A program made the position numbers and the translations under genes. A model generated the notes under the pieces. That model was not told the origin of the DNA and made no database searches. It saw nothing but the letters and a program-made list of their open reading frames with translations. From Corynebacterium coyleae (lineage in GTDB: Bacteria; Actinomycetota; Actinomycetes; Mycobacteriales; Mycobacteriaceae): a stretch of 64,000 bases of DNA. Positions 10,958 through 26,354 of the stretch are shown here, in pieces. Numbering within the stretch: position 1 is the stretch's first letter; each line of letters starts with the position of its first letter. Location: assembly GCF_030408635.1 (NCBI RefSeq), contig NZ_CP047198.1, forward strand, positions 496,001 through 560,000, read 5' to 3'.

Positions 10958-12280
10958 TTAGACCGCCGCGAAACCGCGCTCGAGGTCCGCAATAATGTCC
11001 TCGACATCCTCGATGCCGACAGACAAACGCACCGTGGCCTGCGTAATACCAGCGCGGGCAAGACCCGCAGCGTCCGACTGGGAGTGCGTGGTCGACGCCG
11101 GGTGCACCACAAGCGAGCGCACGTCGCCGATGTTGGCCAGGTTGGAGTGCAGCTTCAGCGCGTCGATGAACTTCCACGCGTTCGTCTTGTCATCCTGATC
11201 GCCCGCGATGTCGAAGGAGAGCACCGAGCCGGTGTACTTCAGGCCCAACTTGTCCTTCGTCGCCTTGTACGGCGAGTCGTCCAGGCCTGCGTAGTTGACC
11301 TTGGCCACCTTGTCGTGGCCCGCCAGGAACTCCGCCACCTTCAGCGCGTTCGCATTGTGCTTTTCCACGCGAAGCGCCAACGTATCAATACCCTGCAGCG
11401 CAACCCACGCGTTGAACGGCGAAATCGCCGCACCCGTGTCACGCAGCAAACCGGCGCGGGCACGCAGAGCGAACGCCGGGGCGCCCAGGTCCGCGTACTT
11501 CAGGCCGTGGTACGCCGGATCCGGGGTGGTAAACAGTGGGAAGACGTCCTTGCCGTCGCGCTGGACGGTCCAGTCGAACTTGCCGCCGTCGATAATCGCG
11601 CCGCCAATCGCAGCACCGTTGCCGGTATAGAACTTCGTCGTGGACACGACCACGATGTCCGCACCCAACTCCAGCGGCTTGACCAGAGCGGCAGTCGCCA
11701 TCGTGTTATCGACGATCAACGGCACCTGATTGTTATGGGCCACCTCTGCAATGGCCGGGATGTCTAGCACGTCCGCGATCGGGTTGCCGAACGTCTCGCC
11801 ATAAAACGCCCGTGTGTTCGGCTGGACGGCAGCCTGCCAGCTTGCCGGGTCGTCCGGGTTTTCCACGAAGGTGAACTCAATGCCCAACTTTGGCAGCGTG
11901 TGCTGGAACAGCGTCTCGGTGCCGCCGTAGAGGCGTGGGGAGGTAACAACGTGGTCGCCCGCCTGCGCCAAAGTGAGAATCGCGGCAGTCTCCGCAGCCA
12001 TGCCGGACGCGAACGCCGTGGCAGCCACGCCGCCCTCCAGCGACGCCACGCGATCCTCTAGTGCCTGCTGCGTCGGGTTGGTCAGGCGGGTGTAAATCGG
12101 GCCTGCATCCGAGAGGTTAAAGCGGTTCGCCGCGTGCTGGGCATCGTCGAACACGTAGCTGGTGGTCATGTAAATCGGCTGGTTACGCGCGCCGTAGTCC
12201 TGGTCGACCTGCTGGCCAGCATGGATCGAGCGCGTACCAAAGGACCATTCTTGTGCGTTGGAGTTGTCGTAGTTTCCCAT
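10958..12280 (-). CDS. metY: O-acetylhomoserine sulfhydrylase MetY
   Basis: PLP enzyme that converts O-acetylhomoserine and sulfide to homocysteine (direct sulfhydrylation). 440 residues from the ATG at 12280 (MGNYDNSNAQEWSFGTRSIH); the frame runs on upstream, but the -10 box TACATT ends 7 nt before this ATG. Cys/Met-metabolism family marks: TRLTNPTQQALEDRVASLEGG, and the PLP lysine K216 in VVVSTTKFYTGNG. Length and start fit corynebacterial MetY. metX follows without a gap. Confidence 0.95.
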   Translation of the reverse strand: MGNYDNSNAQEWSFGTRSIHAGQQVDQDYGARNQPIYMTTSYVFDDAQHAANRFNLSDAGPIYTRLTNPTQQALEDRVASLEGGVAATAFASGMAAETAAILTLAQAGDHVVTSPRLYGGTETLFQHTLPKLGIEFTFVENPDDPASWQAAVQPNTRAFYGETFGNPIADVLDIPAIAEVAHNNQVPLIVDNTMATAALVKPLELGADIVVVSTTKFYTGNGAAIGGAIIDGGKFDWTVQRDGKDVFPLFTTPDPAYHGLKYADLGAPAFALRARAGLLRDTGAAISPFNAWVALQGIDTLALRVEKHNANALKVAEFLAGHDKVAKVNYAGLDDSPYKATKDKLGLKYTGSVLSFDIAGDQDDKTNAWKFIDALKLHSNLANIGDVRSLVVHPASTTHSQSDAAGLARAGITQATVRLSVGIEDVEDIIADLERGFAAV

Positions 12281-12287
12281 GCGTCGC

Positions 12288-12329
12288 AATGTAGCCCGCT
12301 TGGTCTGTAGTTGTGTACCAAGCGGTCTA
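12288..12329 (-). promoter_or_regulatory. Leaderless metY promoter with two McbR-type boxes
   Basis: The -10 TACATT (12293-12288, minus) ends 7 nt before the metY ATG. Two boxes near the C. glutamicum McbR consensus TAGAC-N6-GTCTA lie here: TAGCC-N6-GTCTG (12292-12307), which overlaps the -10, and TGTAC-N6-GTCTA (12314-12329). The arrangement also forms a perfect 9-bp inverted repeat, CCGCTTGGT (12296-12304) and ACCAAGCGG (12317-12325). Repression by McbR-SAH is inferred. Confidence 0.6.
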
Positions 12330-12486
12330 TTTTGCGAGTTGAGGGGCTGAATAAAAATAGTGCAAATATCCCAGCTCGCGATCGTTCGACCTCCGATGCC
12401 GAGACAGGGGAGTAGAACTTGGCTACGTTTACTAAGCACGTCGCGCCCGTGACGTCTTAGTCGCGCCGTAGTTGAAGGAAGCCTCC
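12330..12486 (+). other. Intergenic region upstream of ppc with a leader stem-loop
   Basis: No gene seen. Near the ppc start an imperfect inverted repeat, CTAAGCACGTC (12432-12442) and GACGTCTTAG (12451-12460), could fold with an 8-nt loop. An AT-rich patch (AATAAAAATAGTGCAAATA, near 12349-12368) may belong to the promoter; I could not fix a convincing -10. Confidence 0.35.
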
Positions 12487-15135
12487 GTGTCTGCTCAGCC
12501 TGCCGATCACGTCCGTGAAGACATCCGACTCCTAGGCCGGGTACTCGGCCGCGTGCTTGCCGAGCAGGAAGGGCAGGAGATCTTCGACCTGGTCGAATCC
12601 ACCCGCCGCACCGCCTTTGACATCGCCCACGGGGACGCCACCCCGGAAGACCTGCTCGCAGTCTTCCGCGATATGGACATCCCCAAAGTGAACCTCGTCG
12701 CACGCGCATTTAGCCACTTCGCGCTGCTGGCTAACTTGGTTGAGGATCTTGACGACGAGAAGGCCGCCGCACCGGTCTCGCTACGCACAAGCTTCGCGCA
12801 CCTGAAAGACAGCGGCGTGGAGGCAGACAAGGTCGCCGACCTTATCGCCGGGGCGCAGGTCTCTCCGGTGCTCACTGCGCACCCGACTGAGACCCGTCGC
12901 CGCACCGTCTTCGACACCCAGACCCACATCAAGCGCTTGCTGAGTGAACTCCACGCTGGTGCCGACCCGGCAGCCATCGAACGCGAGATGGAGCTGCGCA
13001 TGACCCTGATGTGGCAGACCGCGCTGATCCGCATCGCCCGCCCGCGTCTTGAGGACGAGATTGACGTCGGCCTGCGCTATTACAAGCTCTCCCTGCTTGA
13101 GCAGATCCCGGCGATCAACCGCGCAATCCGCTACGAACTTCGCGACACCTTTGGCCGCGACCTCGCCCTCACCCCCGTGATGCGCCCGGGTTCCTGGATC
13201 GGCGGCGACCATGACGGCAACCCGTACGTGAATGCCGAAACGCTCACGTATGCCACCCGCCAAGCCGCCGATACTGTGCTCAGCTACTACATCGATGAGC
13301 TGGGTGAGTTGGAGCGCGAGCTGTCGCTTTCAGACCGCTATTCCACCTGCTCGGAGGAGCTTTCCCGGCTTGCGGATGCCGCCAACAACACCGCCGAGTC
13401 CCGCGTCGATGAGCCCTACCGCCGGGCCATTTTTGGCATCCGCCACCGTGTCGTCGCTACGCGCGAGTTGCTCGCTGGCTCGGTGACCACGGGCTCGCCG
13501 TATGCGGACCCCGGCGAGCTGCTTGCAGACCTGGACGTGATCGACGACTCCCTGCGTGCGCACGGCGGCGCAATCATTGCCGATGACCGGCTGGGCCGCC
13601 TGCGCTCCGCCGTGACCACCTTCGGCTTCCACCTGTACACGCTTGACCTGCGCCAAAACTCCGAATCCTTTGAAAAAGTCGTGACCGAAGTGCTTGCGGT
13701 TGCCGGCGTGTGCGATAACTACGCCGCGCTTGCTGAAGAGGACCGCGTGGAGTTACTCGTCGAGGAGCTGCGCACCCCGCGTCCGCTGCTGCGCGCCGAA
13801 GCACTGCTTAGCGACGACACCCGCAAGGAAATGGGCATCCTCACCGCCGCCGCCCGCGCTGTCCGGGACTTGGGCCAGGGGGCGATCGCGCAGTGCATTA
13901 TCGCCATGACCGGTGCGGTCTCCGACATTTTGGAGCCCATGGTCCTGCTCAAAGAGGTCGGCCTGAGCGACGTCAACGTCGTCCCGCTGTTTGAAACCAT
14001 CGAGGACCTCGCACACGGCGCCAGCATCCTCGAAGATCTCTGGTCGCTGCCGTTCTATCGCGAACATCTGCGCGCCCGCGGTGACATCCAGGAGGTCATG
14101 CTCGGCTACTCCGACTCCAACAAGGACGGCGGCTACCTGCAAGCGAACTGGGCGCTTTACGACGCCGAACTCGCCCTGGTTGAACTCTGCAACCGGCACG
14201 GCATCCGCCTTCGACTCGCGCACGGCCGCGGCGGGGCAGTCGGCCGCGGCGGCGGGCCCACCTACGATGCCATCCTGGCTCAGCCCAAGGGCGCCGTCGA
14301 CGGCTCCATCCGCATCACCGAGCAGGGCGAGATCATCTCCGCCAAGTACGGATCGCCAGAGACCGCCCGCCGCCACCTCGAAGCCTTCGTCGCCGGCACC
14401 CTGGAGGCATCCTTCCTGGATACCGAACCTATCGACGACCCGACCCGCGCCTACGACATCATGCGTGCGCTTGCCGCCTACTCCGGCGAAAAGTACAACG
14501 AGCTCATCGGCGACCCCGGGTTCATTGACTACTTCACCCAATCCACCCCGCTGCACGAGATCGGCGAGCTCAACCTCGGCTCTCGCCCGGCGTCCCGCAA
14601 ACAGACCACCGCGATTTCCGACCTGCGCGCCATCCCCTGGGTGCTGTCCTGGGCGCAGTCGCACACCAATGTGCCTGGCTGGTTCGGCGTCGGTACTGCA
14701 GTCGAGCGCTGGGCTGGGGAAGACGAAGACCGCTGGGATGACCTGCGCGAACTCTACCGTGACTGGCCGTTCTTCCGCTCCGTGCTGTCCAACATGGCCC
14801 AAGTCATGGCGAAGGCCGAGCTGTCGCTGGCCCGCCTCTACGCCGACCTAGTGGAGGACCGCGAGGTAGCCGAGCGCATCTACTCCCTTATCGCCGATGA
14901 ATTCGAGCGCACCAAGCAGGTCTACTTCCGTATCACCGGGCATACGGACCTTGTTGCCGAGAACCAGCGCCAGGCCCGATCCCTAAAACGTCGCTACCCC
15001 TACCTGCTGCCGCTCAACGCGGTCCAGCTTGAGCTGCTGCGCCGCTACCGCGCCGGCGACGAGGCCTTCCTCGTCCCGAAGACGATCCAGGTCACCATGA
15101 ACGGGCTGGCCACCGCACTGCGCAACGCAGGGTAG
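12487..15135 (+). CDS. ppc: Phosphoenolpyruvate carboxylase
   Basis: Anaplerotic enzyme that fixes bicarbonate onto PEP to give oxaloacetate. 882 residues from the GTG at 12487; GAAGGAAG lies 5 nt before it, which is why it is preferred to the in-frame TTG at 12472. All active-site blocks are present: VLTAHPTETRRRT with the catalytic histidine, GYSDSNKDGGYLQANW, the glycine-rich loop AHGRGGAVGRGGGPTY, ITEQGEIISAKYG, GSRPASRK, and the C-terminal inhibitor-binding NG end (TALRNAG). Complements the pyruvate carboxylase at the other end of the window. Confidence 0.97.
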   Translation: MSAQPADHVREDIRLLGRVLGRVLAEQEGQEIFDLVESTRRTAFDIAHGDATPEDLLAVFRDMDIPKVNLVARAFSHFALLANLVEDLDDEKAAAPVSLRTSFAHLKDSGVEADKVADLIAGAQVSPVLTAHPTETRRRTVFDTQTHIKRLLSELHAGADPAAIEREMELRMTLMWQTALIRIARPRLEDEIDVGLRYYKLSLLEQIPAINRAIRYELRDTFGRDLALTPVMRPGSWIGGDHDGNPYVNAETLTYATRQAADTVLSYYIDELGELERELSLSDRYSTCSEELSRLADAANNTAESRVDEPYRRAIFGIRHRVVATRELLAGSVTTGSPYADPGELLADLDVIDDSLRAHGGAIIADDRLGRLRSAVTTFGFHLYTLDLRQNSESFEKVVTEVLAVAGVCDNYAALAEEDRVELLVEELRTPRPLLRAEALLSDDTRKEMGILTAAARAVRDLGQGAIAQCIIAMTGAVSDILEPMVLLKEVGLSDVNVVPLFETIEDLAHGASILEDLWSLPFYREHLRARGDIQEVMLGYSDSNKDGGYLQANWALYDAELALVELCNRHGIRLRLAHGRGGAVGRGGGPTYDAILAQPKGAVDGSIRITEQGEIISAKYGSPETARRHLEAFVAGTLEASFLDTEPIDDPTRAYDIMRALAAYSGEKYNELIGDPGFIDYFTQSTPLHEIGELNLGSRPASRKQTTAISDLRAIPWVLSWAQSHTNVPGWFGVGTAVERWAGEDEDRWDDLRELYRDWPFFRSVLSNMAQVMAKAELSLARLYADLVEDREVAERIYSLIADEFERTKQVYFRITGHTDLVAENQRQARSLKRRYPYLLPLNAVQLELLRRYRAGDEAFLVPKTIQVTMNGLATALRNAG

Positions 15136-15153
15136 ATCCCCCTACAATCCGCA

Positions 15154-15256
15154 CCAGAAGCAAGAAACAGGCAAGAAAACGTTTCTTCAGGTAGGGGAGT
15201 TTTTGGGGTGGTTTTGGGGCTGTTTTGGAATCTTGTTCCGGTTACGGAGCAAGAAA
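15154..15256. repeat. Direct repeat, copy 1 (103 bp), flanking the AlbA_2 gene
   Basis: Begins CCAGAAGCAAGAAACAGGC and ends CGGAGCAAGAAA. It aligns along its whole length with 16751-16852, with about a dozen mismatches and one small indel. Each copy contains three GCAAGAAA-type elements. This copy starts 2 bp after the end of the 15258 stop codon, on its downstream side. Confidence 0.9.
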
Positions 15257-15257
15257 A

Positions 15258-16736
15258 CTATTCGGCCCAGAAAGGGACATAGCGGCGGTTGCGTGCTCCA
15301 GCATCCGGGTCGTAGAGCCGGATAAGGCCTTTGTCTACCGTGGCGTTAATGAGACGGCTCGCCTGGGAGGCCTGCGAATCTTTGAGTCCGAAGCGATGCC
15401 GTATCGATGCGTTAGTAACGGCGCGGCTGTCCAGAAATCCGAGGCACGCATGCTGGTAGACGGCTTCAATCTTTTCGTCCGTAGTCATCAGGTTGAAGGG
15501 GCGGTAGGCGCTCAATGTGACGGTTGTTGTGCCGTTTGTACGAGTAAGTGCTGGTGGAAAGTGCTCTGCCTCCAATGATGCAACAATCTTGTCCCAGCCG
15601 CTTCCACGTTGCTCGACGAAGTGCGCGAGGCGAAGCGCTTCGCCGAGGTGCGCATTACGAGTTGTAGAAGCCGAGTCAATAAAACGTTGGGGGTCGACCA
15701 ATGGCGTACCGGGATTGGTCACTTCAACGCGGTCACTGAAAATCTCAACAGTCAAGTACTGACCGCGCTGTTCCAGGTCCTGGTGCATGAGCGCATTCGC
15801 AAATACTTCGCGAAATGCCACCGTAGGCAGCAGCGGGGTTTCAATTCGGCGTCCGCTTGGATCGATAGTCTCTCCGCCGGGGCTCAGTGTGTTAACCAAG
15901 GTCACGATCTGGCTAAACGATGCGGCGTATCCATCGTCAAACTCCCACTCTCGTTGCAGTTGTGTCCTTGATGTGTCACTGAAGTGCATCACCCGTGGGG
16001 CTAAACCGGCGAGGTGTGGGAAGTCTTTGAGCGAGCGTGCGTACATCAGAGCGGACCAGGCCGGGATGCACCAGCCCAATTCGTGGGAATATGTAATCGC
16101 TTCCGCTGCTCGCATTGTCTCGATGAGGGCACTGCCAACATTGCGTGGTAGCTCTGGTCGGTTGGTAAAGAATGCGTCGGGGGAAAGTAGGTCGGTGACC
16201 TCTTCGGGCTCGAGGCCTTCCGCGGCGTTGCTGGTTTCAAACTCGAATTGGTTGAGCTTTCTCCACAACTCGCGTTCGCGATCTGGGAAGTCCATCAAGT
16301 TTTTGGTGTAGCTACCCTGTCGGAAGTAGCGAGTTCCGTCATAGGCGTAAGGGGCTGAGAGTGTAGCTGGAATCCGGAGGAGTACGACGGTTTTGCCTTC
16401 GATTGTGACCGACTCGAAGGAGATTGTCGGCGTGGGAGAGACTACACGCTGCAGCCAAGGGAAAAGGTCTTCGTTGCCCCGGCCTTTCGTAGTCTCCCAT
16501 TGGAACGAAGTGCCTACGATTTCATGAGCATCACTTACACCCCAGATCAGGTAGCCTGCTGGTTCGTCATGAAGGCGCGCTGAGTTGCCTAACGCGCACA
16601 CATACTTGGCGATCTCCGGACCGGTCGCAGCGTTGTTTTCCTTAAACTCCAGCCAGGGGAGTTCCGCAGGCAAATCGAGAAATCGTTGGATCCTGGCGAT
16701 GAGTTGAGGCTCCGACGTGGAATTAAGCGGTGACAT
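15258..16736 (-). CDS. AlbA_2 (Schlafen-type) domain / ATP-binding protein, COG2865-like
   Basis: 492 residues, start ATG 16736. The N-terminal third has the AlbA_2 fold marks: LPWLEFKENNA near residue 28, then EIAKYVCALGNSARLHDEPAGYL IWGVSD. The C-terminal half resembles the HATPase_c_4 domain of this family (EVFANALMHQDLEQRG, VEVTNPGTP, QRGSGWDKI), followed by a winged-helix-like end. Members are called putative transcriptional regulators or helicase-like proteins, and some lie in defence islands; the target is unknown. Flanked by two direct repeats, so it looks like a small acquired or duplicated islet. A -35 TTGCCT and -10 GATACT with 17-bp spacing overlap the upstream repeat. Confidence 0.78.
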   Translation of the reverse strand: MSPLNSTSEPQLIARIQRFLDLPAELPWLEFKENNAATGPEIAKYVCALGNSARLHDEPAGYLIWGVSDAHEIVGTSFQWETTKGRGNEDLFPWLQRVVSPTPTISFESVTIEGKTVVLLRIPATLSAPYAYDGTRYFRQGSYTKNLMDFPDRERELWRKLNQFEFETSNAAEGLEPEEVTDLLSPDAFFTNRPELPRNVGSALIETMRAAEAITYSHELGWCIPAWSALMYARSLKDFPHLAGLAPRVMHFSDTSRTQLQREWEFDDGYAASFSQIVTLVNTLSPGGETIDPSGRRIETPLLPTVAFREVFANALMHQDLEQRGQYLTVEIFSDRVEVTNPGTPLVDPQRFIDSASTTRNAHLGEALRLAHFVEQRGSGWDKIVASLEAEHFPPALTRTNGTTTVTLSAYRPFNLMTTDEKIEAVYQHACLGFLDSRAVTNASIRHRFGLKDSQASQASRLINATVDKGLIRLYDPDAGARNRRYVPFWAE

Positions 16737-16750
16737 GCCTCAAGTATCCC

Positions 16751-16852
16751 CCAGAAGCAAGAAACAGGCAAGAAAATATTTCTCCAGGTAGGAGAGTTTT
16801 TAGGGTGGTTTTAGGGCTGTTCTGGCACCTTTTCCGGGTGCGGAGCAAGAAA
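16751..16852. repeat. Direct repeat, copy 2 (102 bp), upstream of the AlbA_2 gene
   Basis: Aligns with 15154-15256. It starts 14 bp before the AlbA_2 ATG on that gene's upstream side and covers its likely promoter: on the minus strand TTTTCTTGCC and TTTCTTGCTT are tandem elements over the -35. This suggests the repeated unit is a promoter/operator region. Confidence 0.9.
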
Positions 16853-16933
16853 CGGTTTGGTTGCGATCGCAACCATGGGTGAACGCCGTCGCTACGCCAC
16901 GCCGGGAAAACCTTAAGTTTGTCTGGCAGGTGA

Positions 16934-16939
16934 TATATT
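16934..16939 (+). promoter_or_regulatory. Candidate -10 box of the bacteriocin cassette
   Basis: TATATT, the best -10 in the gap 16853-17051, would give a leader of about 105 nt before the precursor gene. No good -35 is seen. The rest of this gap shows no coding region longer than 20 codons with a plausible start. Confidence 0.4.
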
Positions 16940-17051
16940 GTGGGGCAAATCACAGAGTGGGCGCTCCTACTTGTAGCAACATAGATCTGACCACGATAAT
17001 TGCGATACCGCGATAGCCCACGCAGTTGAATATCGACAGATGGGAGGGACC

Positions 17052-17192
17052 ATGGAAGTTCAGAATCGACATGGCTCTGCAGCTGTGAGGAAGTTTCAGT
17101 CGGATCGTGGCTGTTTAATCAAGAACGGTTGGTCACGCGCCACTGCTTCGCGCGAGAGGCTTGGAAATGAATCCTTCTACCAACATTGCTAG
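17052..17192 (+). CDS. Lactococcin-972-family bacteriocin precursor, apparently lacking its signal peptide
   Basis: 46 codons, with GGGAGG 4 nt before the ATG (17052) and an in-frame ATG at 17040. The C-terminal half reads GCLIKNGWSRATASRERLGN then ESFYQHC. It aligns without gaps to the lactococcin 972 C-terminus around W-A-K-A-T-x-x-R and S-F-Y; HGS near the start also matches. The GC-x-x-x-x-x-W ... GN-x-x-x-Y-x-x-C pattern is typical of actinobacterial members. The next two genes are this family's 7TM and ABC partners. Normal precursors have 90-110 residues with a signal peptide; none is readable upstream in any frame, so this is a truncated or decayed precursor, or a leaderless one. The stop lies 3 nt before the next ATG. 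Confidence 0.68.
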   Translation: MEVQNRHGSAAVRKFQSDRGCLIKNGWSRATASRERLGNESFYQHC

Positions 17193-17195
17193 AGC

Positions 17196-19184
17196 ATGTC
17201 TCTTCTAAAATCAGGCCTATTAGCCGTGGGGATATTCGCCACGGCTATTCTCGCGACCACCGTGGCTTTCCTTGGTGCGCAGCTTTATTCGGTGGTTGAT
17301 GGCCACCTTGGCGAATACGGGGTGCAGGTGGAATCGGATCGCGCCGCTTCGGAGCGCGTGAGTTTCTATTCCGACCTGGCCGAGTTTGCGCGAAATAATG
17401 ACTTCGATGTCGCGATTAACTACTCATCGCTCGCTGTCTCGGGTGGGGAGCAACGGGTTTACTCATCCTCGCTTCCACCTGACGGCGGTCGGGTGGAGCG
17501 GCCACGCTTTGAGCGAGGAGAAGTTGACATATTTTATCCGCTGGAAGACTTTCCATACCCTGACCCGAGGCAACCTCTTCATGTCAAAGGATCTGCGGCG
17601 GACGAACAACATTTGCTGCGGTGGTTGGATGAACAGGGGCTCGACGCGGTACCTCTTACCAGGTACTTCATGGAAATCTTTGCATCTTCGACTATTCCTA
17701 TCCTGTTGATCTTGTCTGTGCTCCTGTGTCTGGTGCTCAGCGCGGGCCATGTTCTTGCCCGCTCACGGGAGGTCGGTGTTCATCGACTGTTTGGGCTCAG
17801 TATCGCAGAAACGGCCCGTATTGAAATTGAGCGACAGAGGATCACACTGGTGGTTGCCTACCTCGGGGTCCCACTGCTCGTTGCGGGCTTACTTTATGCC
17901 TATAACGGGTGGGCGCAAGGCGGGGTGTTTTGGAGCATTCATTTTACGATCAGCTTCATTCTGTCGACATGTTTGCTCATTGGTTACTTGGGTGGCCAGT
18001 TGCTGGTTCGCAGGACATCGATACCTCAATCCGTCAAGGGCAAGATCCGCGCGCGACCAATTCTCTACTCCCTGACCGTTGTCCGCGGTGCGACCCTGGT
18101 TGCTGCGATCAGTGTGGTTGCAACCCTGGTCGGGTTTTCAGCAGAACTTGAAGCGCGTCATCGCTTGCAGGGGGCGTGGGATGCGCACCGTGGGCAGCAA
18201 GAGTTGGCGTTGAACGTTAACACGGCCTTCGAAGATTGGTCAGATAGAGAGGCCGCAGCGCCATTTCGAGCTGCCGACGAGGCAGGAGACATTCTCCTCG
18301 TTGACCCGTATTGGATTACATGGCCCGTGGAATTGGAGTCACCAGTTTTATTGGTGAACCAGGAGTTCGCGCGGCAGGCAGGAGTATCAATGTTGGATGG
18401 CACTGTTGTGACGGTCTGCTCGCCGGGAGAGTTATCTCTACAGTCGGTAAACACGATCGTGGATACGCTCCAGTTCGAGGCTAGCTACACCAATGAACCA
18501 GTCCCCGGCATAGAGTGGCGCTACGGCTGCAGCTTAGGCCCGGTATTCACTTACGATGTTAATTACCGTCCACAAGTTGATAACCCGATTCTCGTCATCC
18601 TCCCGCGTGGCCTTGCTCCGTTGGGAGACCACAACTTGATGTCGAAGGTATCCCAGCAAGTCCTTCTCACTGTCTCCCCTGATGTGCCGTCGCAAATATT
18701 GAAAGGTGCTACTGGAAATACGCTTGCTTTCTTCAGGCCACGCGAGGACTCATGGCAGGCGAGCATTCGCGCCGCCGAGCAGAATGTGGCTCTGTGGGGG
18801 CTGAATGGCTTTGCGACAGTCCTACTTGTGACGGTCTTGGTCGGTGCCACGGTCCTGACTTTCCGCATCACCTACCGGCGCAAAATCCACGTTGCCTATG
18901 TTTGCGGGCGAAGCCCTTGGTGGGTTGCAAAGGAAGTGGTAGCGATTGAGGTTGCATTTTTCTTAGCGACGATTGGCTGGCTGCTCTATAAGGTTCACGA
19001 TCATCGGGTTCAAGCTGAGAGTCGCGTGCCGTCTACCTGGAGTATCGGGTTTGAAAATCAATGGTCACCATTCACCATTGCCGCAGTAGTTGGTTTTGGC
19101 GCAGTATGGTTCGTAGTTTCCGTGGCGTTGATGCTCAGGGCTGCTTCGCAGTGGGATGCAAGGGGAGGGGTGGAACCGCAATGA
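17196..19184 (+). CDS. Bacteriocin-associated integral membrane protein (lactococcin-972 type 7TM immunity/permease)
   Basis: 662 residues, FtsX/MacB-like layout: an N-terminal membrane segment (about 8-30), an outer domain of about 120 residues, four membrane segments between about 155 and 310 (TIPILLILSVLLCLVLSAG, ITLVVAYLGVPLLVAGLLY, FTISFILSTCLLIGYLGG, ATLVAAISVVATLVGF), a second outer domain of about 230 residues, and three more at the C-terminus (LNGFATVLLVTVLVGATVL, EVAFFLATIGWLL, FTIAAVVGFGAVWFVVSVA). Size, topology and neighbours fit the putative immunity protein of lactococcin-972 clusters; with the ATPase it should form an ABC exporter or immunity pump. Base composition is lower in GC than the flanking core genes. 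The stop overlaps the next ATG. Confidence 0.82.
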   Translation: MSLLKSGLLAVGIFATAILATTVAFLGAQLYSVVDGHLGEYGVQVESDRAASERVSFYSDLAEFARNNDFDVAINYSSLAVSGGEQRVYSSSLPPDGGRVERPRFERGEVDIFYPLEDFPYPDPRQPLHVKGSAADEQHLLRWLDEQGLDAVPLTRYFMEIFASSTIPILLILSVLLCLVLSAGHVLARSREVGVHRLFGLSIAETARIEIERQRITLVVAYLGVPLLVAGLLYAYNGWAQGGVFWSIHFTISFILSTCLLIGYLGGQLLVRRTSIPQSVKGKIRARPILYSLTVVRGATLVAAISVVATLVGFSAELEARHRLQGAWDAHRGQQELALNVNTAFEDWSDREAAAPFRAADEAGDILLVDPYWITWPVELESPVLLVNQEFARQAGVSMLDGTVVTVCSPGELSLQSVNTIVDTLQFEASYTNEPVPGIEWRYGCSLGPVFTYDVNYRPQVDNPILVILPRGLAPLGDHNLMSKVSQQVLLTVSPDVPSQILKGATGNTLAFFRPREDSWQASIRAAEQNVALWGLNGFATVLLVTVLVGATVLTFRITYRRKIHVAYVCGRSPWWVAKEVVAIEVAFFLATIGWLLYKVHDHRVQAESRVPSTWSIGFENQWSPFTIAAVVGFGAVWFVVSVALMLRAASQWDARGGVEPQ

Positions 19185-19743
19185 CAATTCAGGTACGCGA
19201 AGTATCCTGCGTATTTGGCGAGCGAATGGTTTTGCAAACTTTCACAGCCACGTTTCGGGCAGGTCGAATCACGGCGCTCACAGGACCCTCCGGCAGCGGA
19301 AAAACAACCTTGCTCAATATGTTAGGCGGGCTAACTGCACCGGATTCGGGGACTATCGAATTTAAGGGACTCGACATCGCATCCATGAATTCGGGTGCAC
19401 GTCGCAAATTTCGGCGAGCGAACGTCGGGTACCTGTTTCAGGACTACGGATTGGTACCCGATCTCTCTGTACTGGAGAACATTAAGATTGCTGTTCCCCG
19501 TATCTCCCGCGAAAGGGTGGCAGCGGCGCTGGCTGCAGTCGGGCTTGGAGGTACCGAAACGCGAACAGTGAGCGAACTTTCTGGTGGTGAACAACAGCGA
19601 ATTGCTTTGGCAAGGCTCATTCTCGCGCAGCCAAAGATTGTGTTGGCTGATGAGCCAACCGGGGCTCTCGATGAAGCAAATGCGCAACTTGTGCTTAAGC
19701 ATCTGCGTCAATTCGCGCAGGATGGTGCAGTTGTCGTCGTAGC

Positions 19744-20197
19744 TGTTGCGCGGGGGTATCTAGTAACACCGTGGTGACTATCGGGTAACGCAATGGTGAG
19801 TATCGAGTAACGCTTTGGGAGAAGATTCTTCTGACCGCGTGGCAAAAGAACACGCGGCATCATCAGAGGAGTCTGATCGTGACTGATTACCGGGCCGTGA
19901 TGGACCTTGTCTTACAAGGCTGGTCCGCCAAATCTGCTCGACACTGCGGGTCAACGATTGTCACCTCTCAGTTCACGCCCGATGAGCGGTACAAGTCCAT
20001 CCCGGATGCCGTCATCGCCGAGTCGATGCTGAATCGGCTTGTCGTTGGCGCTGAGATCATCATGCTGGACGGACCGAACATGCGCCTAGAAGCCAATACG
20101 AAGTAGCGGATCATGGTCTATGCCCGGGTGTTACTCGATACTCACCCGCGCGTTACTGGATACTCACCACAGCGTTACTAAATCCGTGGTCCTAACA
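19744..20197. mobile_element. IS21-family element, internally deleted (454 bp, MITE-like)
   Basis: Flanked by a 5-bp target duplication GTAGC (19739-19743 and 20198-20202). Both ends read inward 5'-TGTT and carry multiple terminal repeats at 22-bp spacing: GTAAC at 19763, 19785 and 19807, and GTTAC ending at 20134, 20156 and 20178. The outermost repeat is 19 bp from the tip at both ends. Repeat arms share GTGGTGA-x-TATC. Such end arrays are characteristic of IS21. Inside is only a short istA-istB fusion, so transposition would need enzymes supplied from elsewhere. Confidence 0.9.
19879..20106 (+). pseudogene. In-frame fusion of IstA N-terminus and IstB C-terminus
   Basis: 75 residues from a GTG with AGAGGAG upstream. 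Residues 1-16 (MTDYRAVMDLVLQGWS) match the start of IS21 transposases (IstA). From about residue 22 (CGSTIVTSQFTPDE to DAVIAESMLNRLVVGAE and LDGPNMRLEAN) it matches the C-terminal end of the helper ATPase IstB. About 2 kb of a full element is missing between. The join is in frame, but no catalytic domain remains. Confidence 0.75.
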
Positions 20198-20279
20198 GTA
20201 GCCACCCATTCTTCGTATATTGCGGATAACTCAGATGGGGTGGTTGAGCTCTGAAGGCCTGACGCGACGAACAGCAAAA

Positions 20280-20313
20280 GCCCCGGCCACTGTGTGGAAA
20301 CAGTGACCGGGGC
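20280..20313 (-). terminator. Rho-independent terminator of icd
   Basis: GCCCCGG-(C)-CACTG stem pairs with CAGTG-(A)-CCGGGGC around a short loop; on the minus strand TTTTGCTGTT follows. It lies 17 bp beyond the icd stop codon. Confidence 0.85.
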
Positions 20314-20329
20314 CGATCAAACCGAGCGC

Positions 20330-22513
20330 TTACTTCTCCAGTGCGTCGATGATCTTGTTAAAAGTTGCGGACGGACGCATGACCGCGGAGGTCTTGGCGT
20401 CGTCCGGCCAGTAGTAGCCGCCGAGGTCGGCAGCGTTGCCCTGGGCAGCGAGCAGCTCAGAGTCGATCGCTTCGGCGTTGTCGCGCAGGTCCTTCGCAAT
20501 CGGGCCGAAGACCTCAGCCAGTTCGGCGTCGTCGGTCTGGGCTGCCAGTGCCTCTGCCCAGTACAGGGAGAGCCAGAAGTGGGAGCCGCGGTCGTCGATT
20601 TCGTTGACCTTGCGGGACGGGGACTTGCCCTCATCCAGCAGCTTCTCGGTTGCCTTGTCCAGAGCGGCGGCAAGGATGCCCGCCTTCTCGTTGCCGTTGG
20701 TGTTCTTCTCGTGGCGGAAGGACTCGGCCAGTGCGAGATACTCACCGAGGGAGTCCCAACGCAGGTGGTTTTCTTCCTCAACCTGCTGGACGTGCTTCGG
20801 GGCGGAGCCGCCGGCACCGGTCTCGAACAGGCCGCCGCCAGCCATCAGCGGGACGACGGAGAGCATCTTCGCGGAGGTACCCAGTTCGAGGATCGGGAAC
20901 AGGTCCGTGTTGTAGTCACGCAGCACGTTGCCGGTCACGGAGATGGTGTCCTCGCCGCGGCGGATGCGCTCGACGGAGATCTTGGTGGCCTCGACCGGGG
21001 AGGCGATGGAGATGTCCAGGCCGTCGGTGTCGTGGTCGGCCAGGTACTTCTTCACCAGTTCGATGAGGTTGCGGTCGTGTGCGCGCTCCTCGTCCAGCCA
21101 GAAGATGGTCTTCATGCCGGACAGGCGTGCGCGGTTGACGGCCAGCTTGACCCAGTCTTGGATCGGGGCGTCCTTAGTCTGGCATGCGCGCCAGATGTCG
21201 CCAGCTTCGACGTCGTGCTCGATCAGCACGTCGCCAGCAGCGTTGACTACCTGGACCTTGCCGTCGGCCGGGATCTTGAAGGTCTTGTCGTGGGAGCCGT
21301 ACTCCTCAGCCTTCTTTGCCATGAGGCCGACGTTCGGGACGGTGCCCATGGTGGTCGGGTCGTATGCGCCGTTTTCGCGGCAGTCGTCGATAACCGTCTG
21401 GTACACGCCGGCGTAGGAGGAATCCGGGATGACGGCCAGGGTGTCTTGCTCCTGGTCGTCGGCGTTCCACATGTGGCCGGAGGTGCGGATCATGGCCGGC
21501 ATGGAGGCGTCGATGATCACGTCGGACGGGACGTGGAGGTTGGTGATGCCCTTTGCGGAGTTCACCTGTGCCAGTGCCGGGCCGTCCTGCAGGGCCTGGT
21601 CGAAGGCTGCGCGGATCTCTTCGCCGTTCGGCAGATCAGCAAGGCCCTCGTAGATTGCGCCGAGGCCGTTTTCGCCGTTGAGGCCGGCGTCGAGAAGCTC
21701 GGCGCCGTACTTGTCGTAGACATCCTTGAAGAATGCGCGCACGACGTGGCCGAAGATGATCGGGTCGGAGACCTTCATCATGGTGGCCTTGAGGTGCGCG
21801 GAGAAGAGCACACCCTCTTCCTTGGCCTTCTTCACGGACTCGAGCAGGAACTCATCCAGAGCCTTCGCGGACATGAAGGTGCCGTCGATGACCTCGCCCT
21901 GTTCAACCTTCAGGCCGTCCTTGAGCACCTGCTCGCCGTCTGCGGTGACGAGCTTGATGGCCAGGGTGTCCTCGGCCGGCATGATGACGGACTTCTCGTT
22001 GTGGCGGAAGTCTCCTGCGCCCATGGTGGCAACGTTGGTCTTGGAGTCCTTCGACCAAGCGCCCATGGAGTGCGGGTGCTTCTTGGTGTAGTTCTTTACG
22101 GCCTCCGGAGCGCGGCGGTCGGAGTTGCCCTCACGCAGGACCGGGTTCACAGCGGAGCCCTTGACTGCGTCGTACTTGTCCTGTGCGTCCTCGTAGTCCG
22201 GGATGTCGAAGCCTGCGGCCTGCAGCTCGGCGATGGCCTTCTTTAGCTGGACGAGGGAAGCGGAAATGTTCGGAAGCTTGATGATGTTGGCTTCCGGGGT
22301 CTTTGCCAGCTCACCGAGCTGTGCGAGTGCGTCGTCGACCTTCTTGTCGCCGAGGCGATCTGGGAACTGTGCGAGGATGCGGCCTGCCAGCGAGATGTCT
22401 GCGGTGTCGACCTCGATGCCTGCGCGGGAAGCGAATGCTTCCACGATCGGCTTGAGGGAGTACGTCGCAAGCAGCGGTGCTTCGTCGGTACGAGTCCAAA
22501 TGATCTTCGCCAT
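20330..22513 (-). CDS. icd: Monomeric NADP-dependent isocitrate dehydrogenase
   Basis: TCA-cycle enzyme: isocitrate plus NADP to 2-oxoglutarate, CO2 and NADPH. 727 residues from the ATG at 22513 with AAAGGAG 4 nt upstream; the longer open frame to 22765 is a chance extension. Monomeric-type features throughout: [20 protein letters not shown] at the start, [20 protein letters not shown] with substrate-binding residues, [19 protein letters not shown], and the C-terminal [19 protein letters not shown]. This form is typical of corynebacteria. Diverges from xthA and ends in a strong terminator. Confidence 0.97.
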
Positions 22514-22625
22514 AATGCTCCTTTGTTGTAAGGTTCCTGACTTCAACCCACCAGAGTACCGTCCCGCCACGGCCCTGTCTGGCGATAGGGCCGGGAGAGG
22601 TACGGGATAGGTAAGGTCTTGGCCC

Positions 22626-23540
22626 ATGAGCCTTACCATTGCATCCGTCAACGTCAACGGCATCCGTGCCGCCACGAAGGTCCGCAACGAGAACAATCCG
22701 GGCATGTTGGCCTGGTTGGACGAGAATCCGGCCGATGTGGTGCTGATGCAGGAGGTGCGCGCCACAGAAGATCAGGCGCGTGCTGCGCTTGCCCCGGCGC
22801 TGGAAAATGGGTGGCACCTGGAGGTGGCGCCGGCCGAAACACCTGGTGCGAAGGGTCGTGCGGGTGTGGGTATCCTGTCGCGCACGCCGCTGCGCGATGT
22901 GGAGATCGGGATTCCGGATTTTGAGGATGCGGGTCGCTTTATTGCAGCATCGCTTGACGACGACACCCGCGTCGCCGCCCTCTACCTCCCCTCAGGAGCA
23001 GCCGAGACGGCCAAGCAGGACGAGAAGTATCGTTTCCTGGATCAGTTCGAGCCGCTGCTGGAGCAGTGGGCGGACGAATACCCGGACATGGTGATCGGCG
23101 GGGATTGGAACATCTGCCACCGCCGCGAAGACCTGAAGAATTGGAAGGCGAACCGGAAGAAGTCCGGTTTCTTGCCGCACGAGCGCGCGTTCATGGACGC
23201 GGTGTTTGGTAGCTTCCCGGACGAGGAGGCGCAGGATCTAGAGGACAAGGCTGCGGCGGAATGGGCTGGGGCGGTGGAGTACCGGTCGGGGGGTCGTCGT
23301 CAAGCAAATGGTGCTCCGAAGTGGTTCGACGTCGCGCGCAGGCTGCACCCGGAGGACGCGCCGTACACCTGGTGGACGTTCCGCGGCCAGGCGTTTAACA
23401 ACGACGCGGGTTGGCGCATCGACGTCCAGGCTGCCACCGCGAACATGCTGGAGCGTGCGCAGCGCACGTGGGTGGAGAAGGCGCCGACGGTGGAAGAGCG
23501 CTGGTCGGACCACTCGCCGCTTGTGGTTAAGTATCGCTAA
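22626..23540 (+). CDS. xthA: Exodeoxyribonuclease III / AP endonuclease
   Basis: EEP-family nuclease of base-excision repair: cleaves at abasic sites and has 3'-5' exonuclease activity. 304 residues. Metal and catalytic residues: SVNVNGIRA (N), LMQEVRA (E), IGGDWNICH (D and N) and the C-terminal [12 protein letters not shown] (D-H pair). TAAGGT lies 8 nt before the ATG, so the transcript may be nearly leaderless. Next to icd, divergent, as in C. glutamicum. Confidence 0.93.
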
Positions 23541-23552
23541 TCTGGGTTTTCC

Positions 23553-23565
23553 TGAACGCCGTTCA
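23553..23565. promoter_or_regulatory. BioQ-type operator of bioB
   Basis: TGAAC-GCC-GTTCA, a perfect palindrome that matches the corynebacterial BioQ motif TGAAC-N3-GTTAC except at one position. It lies 9 bp upstream of a -10 TAAACT (23575-23580), where a TetR-type repressor would block the -35 region. Confidence 0.7.
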
Positions 23566-23622
23566 ATTGCGCGCTAAACTGTTGCGCAACCATCACGTGA
23601 ACGACGCGAACGGAGCCCACAG

Positions 23623-24687
23623 ATGACCGATATTCTTGACATCGCCCGCGAAAAAGCCCTGGAAAACGGCGAAGGCCTGAACAAGGAGGAGCTCGTCCAG
23701 ATCCTCAACATTGAGGACGAGCGCCTGCCTGAACTGCTCGACCTCGCCCACCAGGTGCGCATCAAACATTGCGGCGTCGATGTTTCGCTGGAAGGCATCA
23801 TCTCCCTGAAGACCGGTGGCTGCCCCGAGGACTGCCACTTCTGCTCCCAGTCCGGCCTGTTCGAATCACCTGTGCGCGCCGTGACGCTGGACATCGCCGA
23901 ACTTGTCGAGGCCGCCAAGCAGTCCGAGAAGATGGGCGCTTCCGAGTTCTGCATCGTCGCCGCCGTGAAGGGGCCGACCCAGCAACTGCTGGACCAGGTC
24001 GCCGAGGCCGTCACTGCGATCCAGGAAGAGGTGGACATTTCCATCTCCGCATCGCTGGGCATCCTCACCCGCGACCAGGCCCGCCAACTGGCCAAGATGG
24101 GCGTGTCGCGCTACAACCACAACTTCGAAACCGCCGAGTCGTTCTTCCCTAACGTGGTCACCACCCACACCTGGCAGGAGCGCAAGGACACGCTGGAGAA
24201 CGTGCTGGCAGAGGGCATGGAAACCTGCTGCGGCGGCATCATCGGCTTGGGTGAGAGCATCGAGCAGCGCGCCGAATTCGCCACCCAGTTGGCCGAAATC
24301 CAGCCGCATGAAGTGCCGATGAACTTCCTCGACCCGCGCCCAGGCACCCCGTTCGCCGACCGCCCGCTGGTGCCCCAGGGTGAGGCGCTGCGTGCCGTCG
24401 CCGCGTTCCGCCTGGCCATGCCGTCCACCCAGCTCCGTTTTGCGGGTGGCACGGAGCTCGCGCTTGGCGACGACGGCACCGAAGCCGGACTCATGGGCGG
24501 CGCGAATGCCATTATCGGCGGTAATTACCTGACCACGTTTGGACGTCCGATGGAGAAGGACCGCGACGCCGTTGACCGTGTGTTGGAAGGCGGGGCGAAG
24601 CCAGGCCTGAGCCTGAACATCACCCCGGTGGGGCAGAAGCAGAACTCCGGCCACGGAGTCCTGTACGACACCATCAAGTCACTGTAG
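23623..24687 (+). CDS. bioB: Biotin synthase
   Basis: Radical-SAM enzyme that inserts sulfur into dethiobiotin. 354 residues. The [4Fe-4S] motif is [10 protein letters not shown] with C67, C71 and C74. Other blocks: [26 protein letters not shown] and [14 protein letters not shown] for the second cluster region, with the C-terminal part ending [16 protein letters not shown]. The leader is about 36 nt with GGAG before the ATG. Biotin is needed by AccBC and Pyc encoded further on. Followed by bsaP. Confidence 0.96.
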
Positions 24688-24701
24688 TTAGCCGGGCCCT
24701 G

Positions 24702-24905
24702 ATGAAAATTCCGGATTCAACGGAACTCGCCGACGCAGTGCTGTCCGGCGAGATCGCCTGGCCGCTCGACCCGGCCAGGCCCTACGACGCGCCGCGTATT
24801 TGCCCGCTATGCCAGCGGCGCATGGTGGTAAAAATCAGCCCGATGGCGTGGGAGGCTGCCTGCTCCCGCCATGGGCTGCTGCGCTCCGAGTGGTTGGAGC
24901 GGTAG
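24702..24905 (+). CDS. bsaP: Biotin synthase auxiliary protein BsaP-like
   Basis: 67 residues, 14 nt after bioB. A C-x2-C at CPLCQRRM and a C-x2-H at ACSRHG suggest a small iron-sulfur or zinc-binding protein; between them lies the conserved VKISPMAWEAA, and the end is LLRSEWLER. A small protein of this type directly after bioB in mycobacteria (BsaP, Rv1590) is required for biotin synthase activity. Assignment by position and cysteine pattern. A partial second copy lies at 25514-25654. Confidence 0.72.
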   Translation: MKIPDSTELADAVLSGEIAWPLDPARPYDAPRICPLCQRRMVVKISPMAWEAACSRHGLLRSEWLER

Positions 24906-24911
24906 GGGGCG

Positions 24912-25256
24912 TTAAAGGTCGAGATGGATGCGGATAGCTTCGTCGAGTTCCATCATTTGGCGGGGAGAAAGCCGTCCCACTTGCTTGCCGACTCGCATGA
25001 CCGACACTGAACGCATGAGTTCCGGCTGAGTTTTTGAATCAATTCGAAGGCCGGACTCTTCGGAATCGACGTATGTCTGAAACGGGAAGACTCTCGAAGT
25101 ATTTGAGGTTAGCGGCACGGCGGTAATCATTCCGCCGTGTATCGCTGCGCCTTGATTCGCGGTGTCGTTGCTGACGATCACGGCGGGCCGTGTCTTGTTG
25201 GCTTCCTGTCCGACCGCCGGTTCGAAATCAACGAGGCGAATTTCACCGCGAAGCAT
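24912..25256 (-). CDS. MazF/PemK-family endoribonuclease toxin
   Basis: 114 residues. The N-terminus LRGEIRLVDFEPAVGQEANKTRPAVIVSND is a textbook MazF start (G-E-I, the R-P-A-V-I-V-S-N strand); PLTSNTSRVFPFQTYV and SVMRVGKQVGRLS follow. It cleaves mRNA when freed from its antitoxin. The ATG overlaps the antitoxin 3' end by 14 bp, the standard two-gene layout. The module sits between bsaP and a partial bsaP copy. Confidence 0.85.
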   Translation of the reverse strand: MLRGEIRLVDFEPAVGQEANKTRPAVIVSNDTANQGAAIHGGMITAVPLTSNTSRVFPFQTYVDSEESGLRIDSKTQPELMRSVSVMRVGKQVGRLSPRQMMELDEAIRIHLDL

Positions 25257-25485
25257 TGTCTAGCCCTTCGTCAGCGAGTGAATCCCAAAGGGCAGCTTCT
25301 TTTTTCCATTCCGAGTCGGAGAAGCATTCTTCATACGCTTTAGCGAGTGATTCCCGCTGGAGGGCGAGGATCGCTTCGCGCATCCCTTCAGATCGAGAAC
25401 GCAAATCCAACTCGGAAACGAGGTTATCCAGAGTTTGGAGCTCGTTCCGGCCTAAACTCACACTGATTCTCATACCATTTTTCAT
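25243..25485 (-). CDS. Ribbon-helix-helix antitoxin (MazE-like)
   Basis: 80 residues. The N-terminal half is a ribbon-helix-helix DNA-binding unit (MRISVSLGRNELQTLDNLV ... SEGMREAIL); the C-terminal half (EECFSDSEWKKEAALWDSLA) is acidic and should wrap the toxin. -10 TACTAT ends 7 nt before the ATG at 25485. Likely represses its own promoter, alone and with the toxin. Confidence 0.82.
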   Translation of the reverse strand: MKNGMRISVSLGRNELQTLDNLVSELDLRSRSEGMREAILALQRESLAKAYEECFSDSEWKKEAALWDSLADEGLDNASR

Positions 25486-25492
25486 ACTCTGA

Positions 25493-25498
25493 ATAGTA
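25493..25498 (-). promoter_or_regulatory. Leaderless -10 box of the toxin-antitoxin operon
   Basis: TACTAT on the minus strand, 7 nt before the antitoxin ATG. The region also touches the start of the divergent partial bsaP copy. Confidence 0.55.
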
Positions 25499-25513
25499 CT
25501 TGTCGTGGTGCTG

Positions 25514-25654
25514 ATGAGGAAGGGCTATTTGGTGGGCAGTGTGCGCACCTGCCCGCTGTGTGGCCGGCGCCTGGGGGTGAAAATTTCCCCGTTGTCGTGG
25601 GAGGCGGCGTGCTCCCGCCACGGGCTGCTGCGCTCCGAGTGGGTGGAGCGGTAG
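25514..25654 (+). pseudogene. Partial second copy of bsaP
   Basis: 46 codons if begun at the ATG at 25514; GTG 25541 and others are possible. The protein CPLCGRRLGVKISPLSWEAA then CSRHGLLRSEWVER is almost the same as residues 33-67 of the 24702 gene, and DNA similarity continues past the stop (GAGCGGTAGGGGGCG at both 24897-24911 and 25646-25660). The first 30 or so residues have no counterpart. It keeps both cysteine motifs, so it may still fold; whether it is expressed is unclear. Confidence 0.75.
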
Positions 25655-25670
25655 GGGGCGGGAGTGTCTG

Positions 25671-26354
25671 CTAGCGCACTAAGCGCTTCGTGTTGCGAAT
25701 CGCCACCGCGCTGACGGCGAGTGTGGCCAGGCATGCGGCGCTTACGCCACCGACGGCGGCGGTGTCCCAATCGCCTACAGGGGACTCAATAGCCCAGTAC
25801 AGTGCGACCGCGATGAGGAACGTGACAAATGCGGTGATGATACCGCGCCCCGCGCCGAAGGAGGCGTAGACCAAACCGAGCGCAACCCCCACGATGGCAG
25901 CAACGAAGAAGAACGCGATGTGGAGCAGCACCGTCCACGCCATCGACGTGGTGTCTTGTCCGACGTTCGCCACGATGTAGGGGTCACCATTAGTGTCCAC
26001 CCAGGGCACGTCTGCGCCGTTGGTGAAGAGGAACAGGTCATAGGCCTGGTAGTACGGGCTCTTGAACTGGTTGTAGATCGACGATGCCGCGGTGGCCCCT
26101 CCAAGTATCACGGCCACCACGACGGATGTGATTGTGGCTGAGTTTATCCACGCGGAAAAGCTTGCGCCGAGCTGGTTCAAGGCGCTCCACTGTGCACCTG
26201 CCAGGATGAATAGGGTGGTCAGTGCGAAGCCTCCGAAGATGGTCCAGAGAGAGCCATCGCCACGATAGAAACGGCCCAGCGGGACTAGGACCAGCAAAAC
26301 GGCCAGTGTTGCCAGGTAGGACAGTGGTTTGAAGGGGCTGAGGAAGAGTTTCAT
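25671..26354 (-). CDS. ABC transporter permease, YtrC-like membrane protein
   Basis: 227 residues with six hydrophobic segments (LATLAVLLVLVPLG, FALTTLFILAGA, ATITSVVVAVILGGATAA, WTVLLHIAFFFVAAIVGVAL, IITAFVTFLIAVALYWAI, AACLATLAVSAVAI) and an outward loop of about 30 residues between the third and fourth. Partner of the next ATPase, whose stop overlaps this ATG (ATGA). Substrate unknown; GntR/YtrA-type modules usually answer cell-envelope stress or antibiotics. Confidence 0.72.
   Translation of the reverse strand: MKLFLSPFKPLSYLATLAVLLVLVPLGRFYRGDGSLWTIFGGFALTTLFILAGAQWSALNQLGASFSAWINSATITSVVVAVILGGATAASSIYNQFKSPYYQAYDLFLFTNGADVPWVDTNGDPYIVANVGQDTTSMAWTVLLHIAFFFVAAIVGVALGLVYASFGAGRGIITAFVTFLIAVALYWAIESPVGDWDTAAVGGVSAACLATLAVSAVAIRNTKRLVR

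Follow-up and report, generated by a model that had tools for sequence, protein, structure and literature searches.

Does the gene cassette between ppc and icd in Corynebacterium coyleae still make a bacteriocin, or at least still protect its host against one? The cassette lies in a stretch of 64,000 nucleotides (assembly GCF_030408635.1, contig NZ_CP047198.1, positions 496,001 to 560,000 of the forward strand; here called the window, whose own coordinates are used throughout), where ppc (12472-15135, + strand) and icd (ending at 20330, − strand) bracket three genes that are all on the + strand. An initial annotation of the sequence had read these as a bacteriocin cassette of the lactococcin-972 type. 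Our results agree with the family but not with a working cassette: the peptide gene has lost its secretion signal and half of its sequence, and the gene for the ATP-binding cassette (ABC) ATPase is interrupted. The locus is best explained as a decaying bacteriocin/immunity operon in which a deletion in the peptide gene was probably followed by an insertion that cut the ATPase gene, and the window copy likely neither kills nor protects. We put the probability of this explanation at roughly 0.85. Since both the peptide gene and the ATPase gene are broken, the cassette is probably dead.

The family assignment is borne out by relatives in which an intact peptide gene stands before the same permease gene. 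All three of the intact orthologues tested match PF09683 (50.7, 54.2, and 58.3 bits; cut-off, 22), two of the three exceed the TIGR01653 cut-off of 32.1 bits (37.2 and 36.9) with the remaining one just below it (31.9), and one tested orthologue matches the solved structure of lactococcin 972, 2lgn (E = 4.6e-4). The gene order of peptide, large membrane protein, and ABC ATPase is that of known lactococcin-972 clusters, such as lcn972-orf2-orf3 of Lactococcus lactis pBL1, where, in the available part of the source, the peptide gene is likewise followed by two putative ABC transporter genes (PMC4055356). The window genes are tightly spaced, with 3 nucleotides between the peptide open reading frame (ORF) and the permease gene and with the start of the ATPase gene at 19181 overlapping the end of the permease gene at 19184. 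The earlier description of three coupled genes is accurate for the coupling and for the 662-codon membrane gene, but gene 1 is truncated and gene 3 is interrupted; the window cassette also departs from the pBL1 cluster in that its membrane protein is only weakly like TIGR01654. Comparison with the family models named in the initial annotation had a mixed outcome: the permease matched TIGR01654 (E = 1.4e-9, 37 bits; cut-off, 189.35) and the 5′ piece of the ATPase matched TIGR03608 (E = 1.3e-54, 184.9 bits; cut-off, 254.85), both below the cut-off, and the peptide had no match. The cassette is a degenerate member of a known, lactococcin-972-type kind.

Aligned to the intact 97-codon genes, the short ORF at 17052-17192 (+ strand; 46 codons, or 50 in the frame that opens at 17040) is the remnant of a lactococcin-972-type precursor gene and not a complete bacteriocin gene. 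Intact relatives encode precursors of about 97 residues with a hydrophobic start resembling a secretion signal. In the window, a 153-nucleotide in-frame deletion corresponding to precursor codons 7 to 57 (51 codons) has taken away this signal-like start and the N-terminal half. The W-x-x-A-T segment and the SFY ending that had been pointed out in the short ORF are there, as WSRAT...SFY. The short ORF gave no Pfam or NCBIfam match at an E value of ≤1, the window genome had no PF09683 match at an E value of ≤0.01, and hydrophobic stretches are absent from the remnant (the highest mean over 11 residues is −0.16, compared to 1.94 in the intact relative L011). Over the last 40 codons, the remnant in the window and that in Corynebacterium sp. 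HMSC29G08 (L010) differ by 12.5 replacement and 6.5 silent changes, a replacement-to-silent ratio (pN/pS) of 0.56, against 0.04, 0.06, 0.12, and 0.12 in four intact peptide pairs and 0.20 in the window/L010 permease. Fisher tests separated the remnant from the two intact pairs that were compared (p = 0.016 and 0.011) and from the permease (p = 0.022), and the remnant was indistinguishable from the neutral expectation (p = 0.20). The pairs used in these selection comparisons are not mutually independent.

Loss of the peptide gene is not confined to the window. A permease search of 242 Corynebacterium genomes returned 50 rows in 44 genomes, and 18 of these rows, from 17 genomes and with at least 43% identity, are referred to here as close cassettes; the upstream region was read in the correct orientation for 17 of the 18. 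Intact cassettes, which the initial annotation had proposed looking for in related genomes, do exist. Ten of the 18 close cassettes have an intact peptide gene: nine with complete precursors of about 97 residues (L003 and L011 to L018) and the second copy in G211, which was scored intact from a PF09683 match and an open frame alone. In the other 8 the gene is broken, by several different deletions. The window and HMSC29G08 have the 153-nucleotide deletion in common, whereas in C. riegelii (L004) more has been lost, and out of frame. One deletion of the C-terminal half, running as far as the stop codon, is common to C. mucifaciens (L005), C. stercoris (L006, genome G210), Corynebacterium sp. 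MSK008 (L007, genome G187), and C. haemomassiliense (L008); three of these (L005, L007, and L008) additionally share a 42-nucleotide internal loss. In L009 (genome G173), just the last peptide codons are left, out of frame. All 8 broken cassettes still have the ribosome-binding region and start codon of the peptide gene as well as the beginning of the permease gene. Three of five deletion types are in frame by our own reading of the alignment, which is too few for a claim of in-frame bias. The permease-then-ATPase order is found in 16/16 of the other close cassettes read, with an intact peptide gene in front in 9, a recurrence beyond what chance would give.

The second lesion is in the ATPase gene. 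Its 5′ piece (19181-19743, + strand) holds the first 187 codons, including Walker A, the LSGGE signature, and Walker B, and matches TIGR03608 best of 206 families as well as PF00005 (E = 4.7e-37). An element of 454 bp (19744-20197, + strand) then interrupts the gene. It is flanked by a duplicated GTAGC (left copy, 19739-19743; right copy, 20198-20202), both copies of which align to the same five bases of the uninterrupted ATPase genes in 10 of 12 compared loci; no match to the ATPase tail was found in the other two, L013 and L014. Beyond the element, the detached 3′ end (20198-20254, + strand) consists of 18 codons, the first of them duplicated, and a stop, identified by alignment with its frame read apart from that of the 5′ piece. 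It carries an ATHS segment whose histidine we take to be the switch residue of ABC ATPases. Of the 17 close cassettes read, 16 have an unbroken ATPase frame, and the window is the sole exception.

The element belongs to the IS21 (IstA/IstB) family, with which it has in common multiple end repeats, an IstB C-terminal end, and a 5-bp target duplication. Its ends are 54-nucleotide arms, 83% complementary and built of 22-nucleotide repeats, and its ORF at 19879-20106 ends in the C-terminal part of IstB (NF038214, E = 1.9e-7; PF01695, E = 3.2e-5; both matches short and below the curated cut-offs). The ORF appears to begin with a transposase-like start joined to this IstB end. The element differs from the family in its length of only 454 bp. 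Its ends are 93 to 94% identical to paired ends that lie about 2.63 kb apart at three places in the genome (662241-664874, 1069375-1072008, and 1808262-1810895), which indicates that it is an internally deleted member. Further partial matches to its ends occur elsewhere in the window genome, and no other match in the genome spans all 454 bp.

The permease gene (17196-19184, + strand) is intact at 662 codons, and none of the 18 close cassettes has a broken permease frame. The protein had been described as having seven transmembrane segments, but its hydropathy peaks, grouped by hand, give eight predicted segments in two halves (one segment, an outer domain, and three segments, twice). Such a layout may point to a tandem permease of the MacB/FtsX type; the match to PF02687 (FtsX) reaches only E = 0.27. 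The dN/dS comparisons covered 14 of the 18 close cassettes (excluding L015, L016, L018, and the second G211 copy), the gene trees 13 cassettes, and the segment trees 10 sequences. In two pairs of cassettes with broken peptide genes, the permease has remained constrained: L005/L008 with 3 replacement and 10 silent changes (p = 1.3e-4) and L005/L006 with 18 and 22 (p = 5.4e-5). Both pairs carry the same C-terminal peptide deletion and fall in one permease clade. Such constraint after the loss of the peptide fits retained immunity, and the window permease is probably an immunity permease.

From these observations, a course of events can be proposed. In relatives with an intact cassette, the peptide would be exported by means of its own signal sequence, as suggested by the hydrophobic stretch and an AxA-like end, and the mature peptide would, by family resemblance, attack a cell wall precursor of related bacteria. 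The permease and the ABC ATPase would shield the producer, possibly by clearing the peptide at the membrane. In the lineage of the window, the in-frame deletion would have disabled the peptide gene but left its start and stop codons and the close spacing to the permease gene in place. The permease and the ATPase were probably retained for a time, as in the other species with broken peptide genes, until the internally deleted IS21-family element cut the ATPase gene in the window.

Several results weigh against this explanation or parts of it. The permeases of L004 and L010, both with broken peptide genes, differ by 21 replacement and 7 silent changes and appear unconstrained (p = 0.58), although the ATPases of the same pair are constrained (7 replacement and 23 silent changes; p = 4.6e-9), and the permease pair L006/L009, which has no deletion in common, is borderline (p = 0.059). 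The window/L010 permease is highly constrained (p = 7e-39), but the permease tree groups L010 with the intact L011 and L012 and not with the window, and the segment trees agree. This pair is not cleanly post-loss, since part of its divergence may predate the deletion, and as the segment trees point to recombination, we no longer count its p value as strong evidence of selection after the loss. For L011/L012, a pair with intact peptide genes, dN/dS is 0.30, a value based on 5 differences only. The window ORF is still open, yet when neutral change was simulated, 63% of the runs still had an open 46-codon frame after 10 changes. The leftover N-terminal half in C. stercoris scores 37.7 bits to PF09683, above the cut-off; we count this gene as broken because its frame stops early. 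Both the permease and the ATPase fall below their NCBIfam cut-offs, as do the proteins of two relatives (41.7 bits for the L017 permease against TIGR01654 and 212.5 bits for the uninterrupted L011 ATPase against TIGR03608). Finally, according to the available part of PMC11796350, 157 of the 571 pneumococcal genomes have no gene of the locus but scbBC, and producers inhibit strains of this sort, so that keeping both genes need not mean protection.

It is highly improbable that the 46-residue product is a working short, leaderless bacteriocin, a variant that selection has maintained and that the ABC system exports. The 46-codon frame is open with the same deletion end points in two species (the window and L010). 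In both, the two cysteines and the W-x-x-A-T segment have been retained, with SFY in the window only and PFY in L010. The replacement rate is nevertheless near neutral (pN/pS of 0.56, where four intact pairs stay between 0.04 and 0.12), the frame has been lost in C. riegelii, the insertion in the window has cut the partner ATPase gene, and the window genome holds nothing that PF09683 recognizes at an E value of ≤0.01. We rejected this candidate on the substitution pattern together with the frame loss in a relative.

The two remaining alternatives concern the permease and the ATPase. The cassette could still protect the host if the permease were driven by the truncated ATPase or by a different cellular ATPase, which would make the strain a nonproducing immune cheater, a state that has been proposed for partial lactococcin-972 clusters in pneumococci (PMC6120550, in the part available). 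The intact permease frame, the remaining putative promoter boxes, and the presence of Walker A, the signature, and Walker B within the 5′ piece would all suit a cheater, but the insertion has cut off the tail with the ATHS segment of a gene that is uninterrupted in every other close cassette read, and we find continued protection quite unlikely. Also doubtful is the idea that the pair is a peptide exporter kept for other cargo and not an immunity system. NCBIfam labels TIGR03608 a putative bacteriocin export transporter; against this, the intact peptides have a signal-like N terminus of their own, and where the peptide gene is not intact (8 close cassettes), the permease frame is kept in all 8 and the whole ATPase gene in 7, which protection explains better. 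We prefer a decayed operon whose permease and ATPase probably once conferred immunity.

Low G+C content and position between core genes had been taken as signs of transfer. The G+C content of the cassette is indeed lower (about 0.53 to 0.56, compared to about 0.62 to 0.67 across most of the flanking ppc and icd), but it can be accounted for without a recent transfer into this genome, an explanation that was rejected: over positions 10000-19743 the window is collinear with both C. riegelii and HMSC29G08 (85% identity), and the cassette therefore looks inherited in this lineage. The content of the ppc-icd gap varies across the genus. The gap measures about 40 bp in G086 and 295 bp in G042 (between match ends). 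In G066 it is about 1.25 kb and holds no cassette but a 315-residue ORF (L080, 113-1060) that is weakly AbiEi-like (E = 6.6e-7), and in G015, G016, G072, G074, G096, and G115 it is about 5 to 8.5 kb with other genes, among them an AlbA_2 gene in two of the six. End fragments of ppc and icd border the cassette in several species, suggesting that it may move by homologous recombination, and the gene trees likewise point to recombination between cassettes. In MSK008, a ppc 3′-end fragment adjoins the cassette (L036, from 10783), yet this genome had no match in the ppc search, and of 121 Corynebacterium genomes, 70 had the C-terminal part of ppc; ppc thus seems to have been lost in some relatives.

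A putative promoter upstream of the peptide remnant (16949-17000, + strand), recognized by pattern and alignment, would consist of a TTG box, a spacer, and GATAAT behind a partly eroded GTAGG-TTTT-CCTAC-like dyad. The box pattern occurs upstream of 9 of 13 cassettes and was not found in L004, L010, L013, or L014 with the regular expression used. A consensus promoter scan did not list 16949-17000, and its numbers were near those of shuffled sequences. Scans for transfer RNAs (whole window) and for Rfam families (10000-26000, gathering scores) gave no hits. Outside the bacteriocin operon, a neighboring gene on the − strand (15258-16736) encodes an AlbA_2 (Schlafen-type)/RecG-C-terminal-like protein (PF04326, E = 6.9e-17; PF13749, E = 2.2e-15), which also matches the candidate defense model PDC-S50 weakly (E = 1.7e-5), and the gene adjoins the cassette in several relatives. 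Direct repeats of about 100 bp (15154-15256 and 16751-16852; 87 to 90% alike) flank it, with no further copy elsewhere in the genome at an E value of ≤0.001. Since the gap of G115 has a 28-bp repeat core on both sides of its AlbA_2 gene (L086, 5062-5089 and 6666-6693) and no bacteriocin cassette, the gene and its repeats may be a mobile unit. An extra gene of 206 to 255 codons, not present in the window, follows the ATPase gene in L003 and L013 to L018 (for instance L003, 4100-4867; L013, 4097-4801; and L017, 4101-4721). Of three that were tested, two gave weak helix-turn-helix signals below the cut-off and one had no Pfam match; a role as operon regulator is possible.

In the available parts of the literature, orf2-orf3 of pBL1 are treated as immunity genes (PMC4055356), while the B and C proteins are described as experimentally unverified in any lactococcin 972 locus (PMC11796350). 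The partial streptococcin B loci of pneumococci (scbBC, D39-like) offer the closest parallel, as the bacteriocin gene is deleted there too and the two next genes stay. The pneumococcal deletion, distributed within a single species, extends to a promoter element (PMC11796350, same part). In Corynebacterium, by contrast, there are several deletions, found across species, internal to the peptide gene and leaving its start and the permease junction untouched; in the window the ATPase gene is broken as well. Class IId (lactococcin-972-like) bacteriocins have been mined in respiratory Corynebacterium, C. striatum included (PMC12188740). This survey deals with the same family and genus and lists predicted core peptides, and in its main text, "immunity" and "pseudogen" occur 0 times. 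Among the titles and abstract openings listed in literature searches, none concerned broken lactococcin-972 copies in Corynebacterium, which is not proof of absence.

Whether Corynebacterium lactococcin-972 cassettes in general have been repeatedly disarmed by deletions within the peptide gene that spare its start and the permease junction, leaving the permease and ATPase under selection as stand-alone immunity, is a more tentative matter, for which we judge the chances to be a little short of even. The permease rows were cross-tabulated against PF09683 for 48 of the 50, excluding the second halves of the G024 and G170 matches; the G024 permease is split into two adjacent matches (L019, G024:C1:2076166-2078080). 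Thirty of the rows are remoter (≤35% identity); PF09683 is matched directly upstream of 15 of them, and the other 15 lack such a match. Some of the latter may be further disarmed cassettes, and the weakest may be other permeases.

The value of the window cassette lies in its set of relatives. Genome mining that counts clusters by their permease and ATPase may score dead ones as producers. The closely related cassettes with and without an intact peptide gene provide matched species for a direct test of immunity, and if repeated disarming is true, the comparison of these species would be a natural test of immunity versus export for the permease-ATPase pair.

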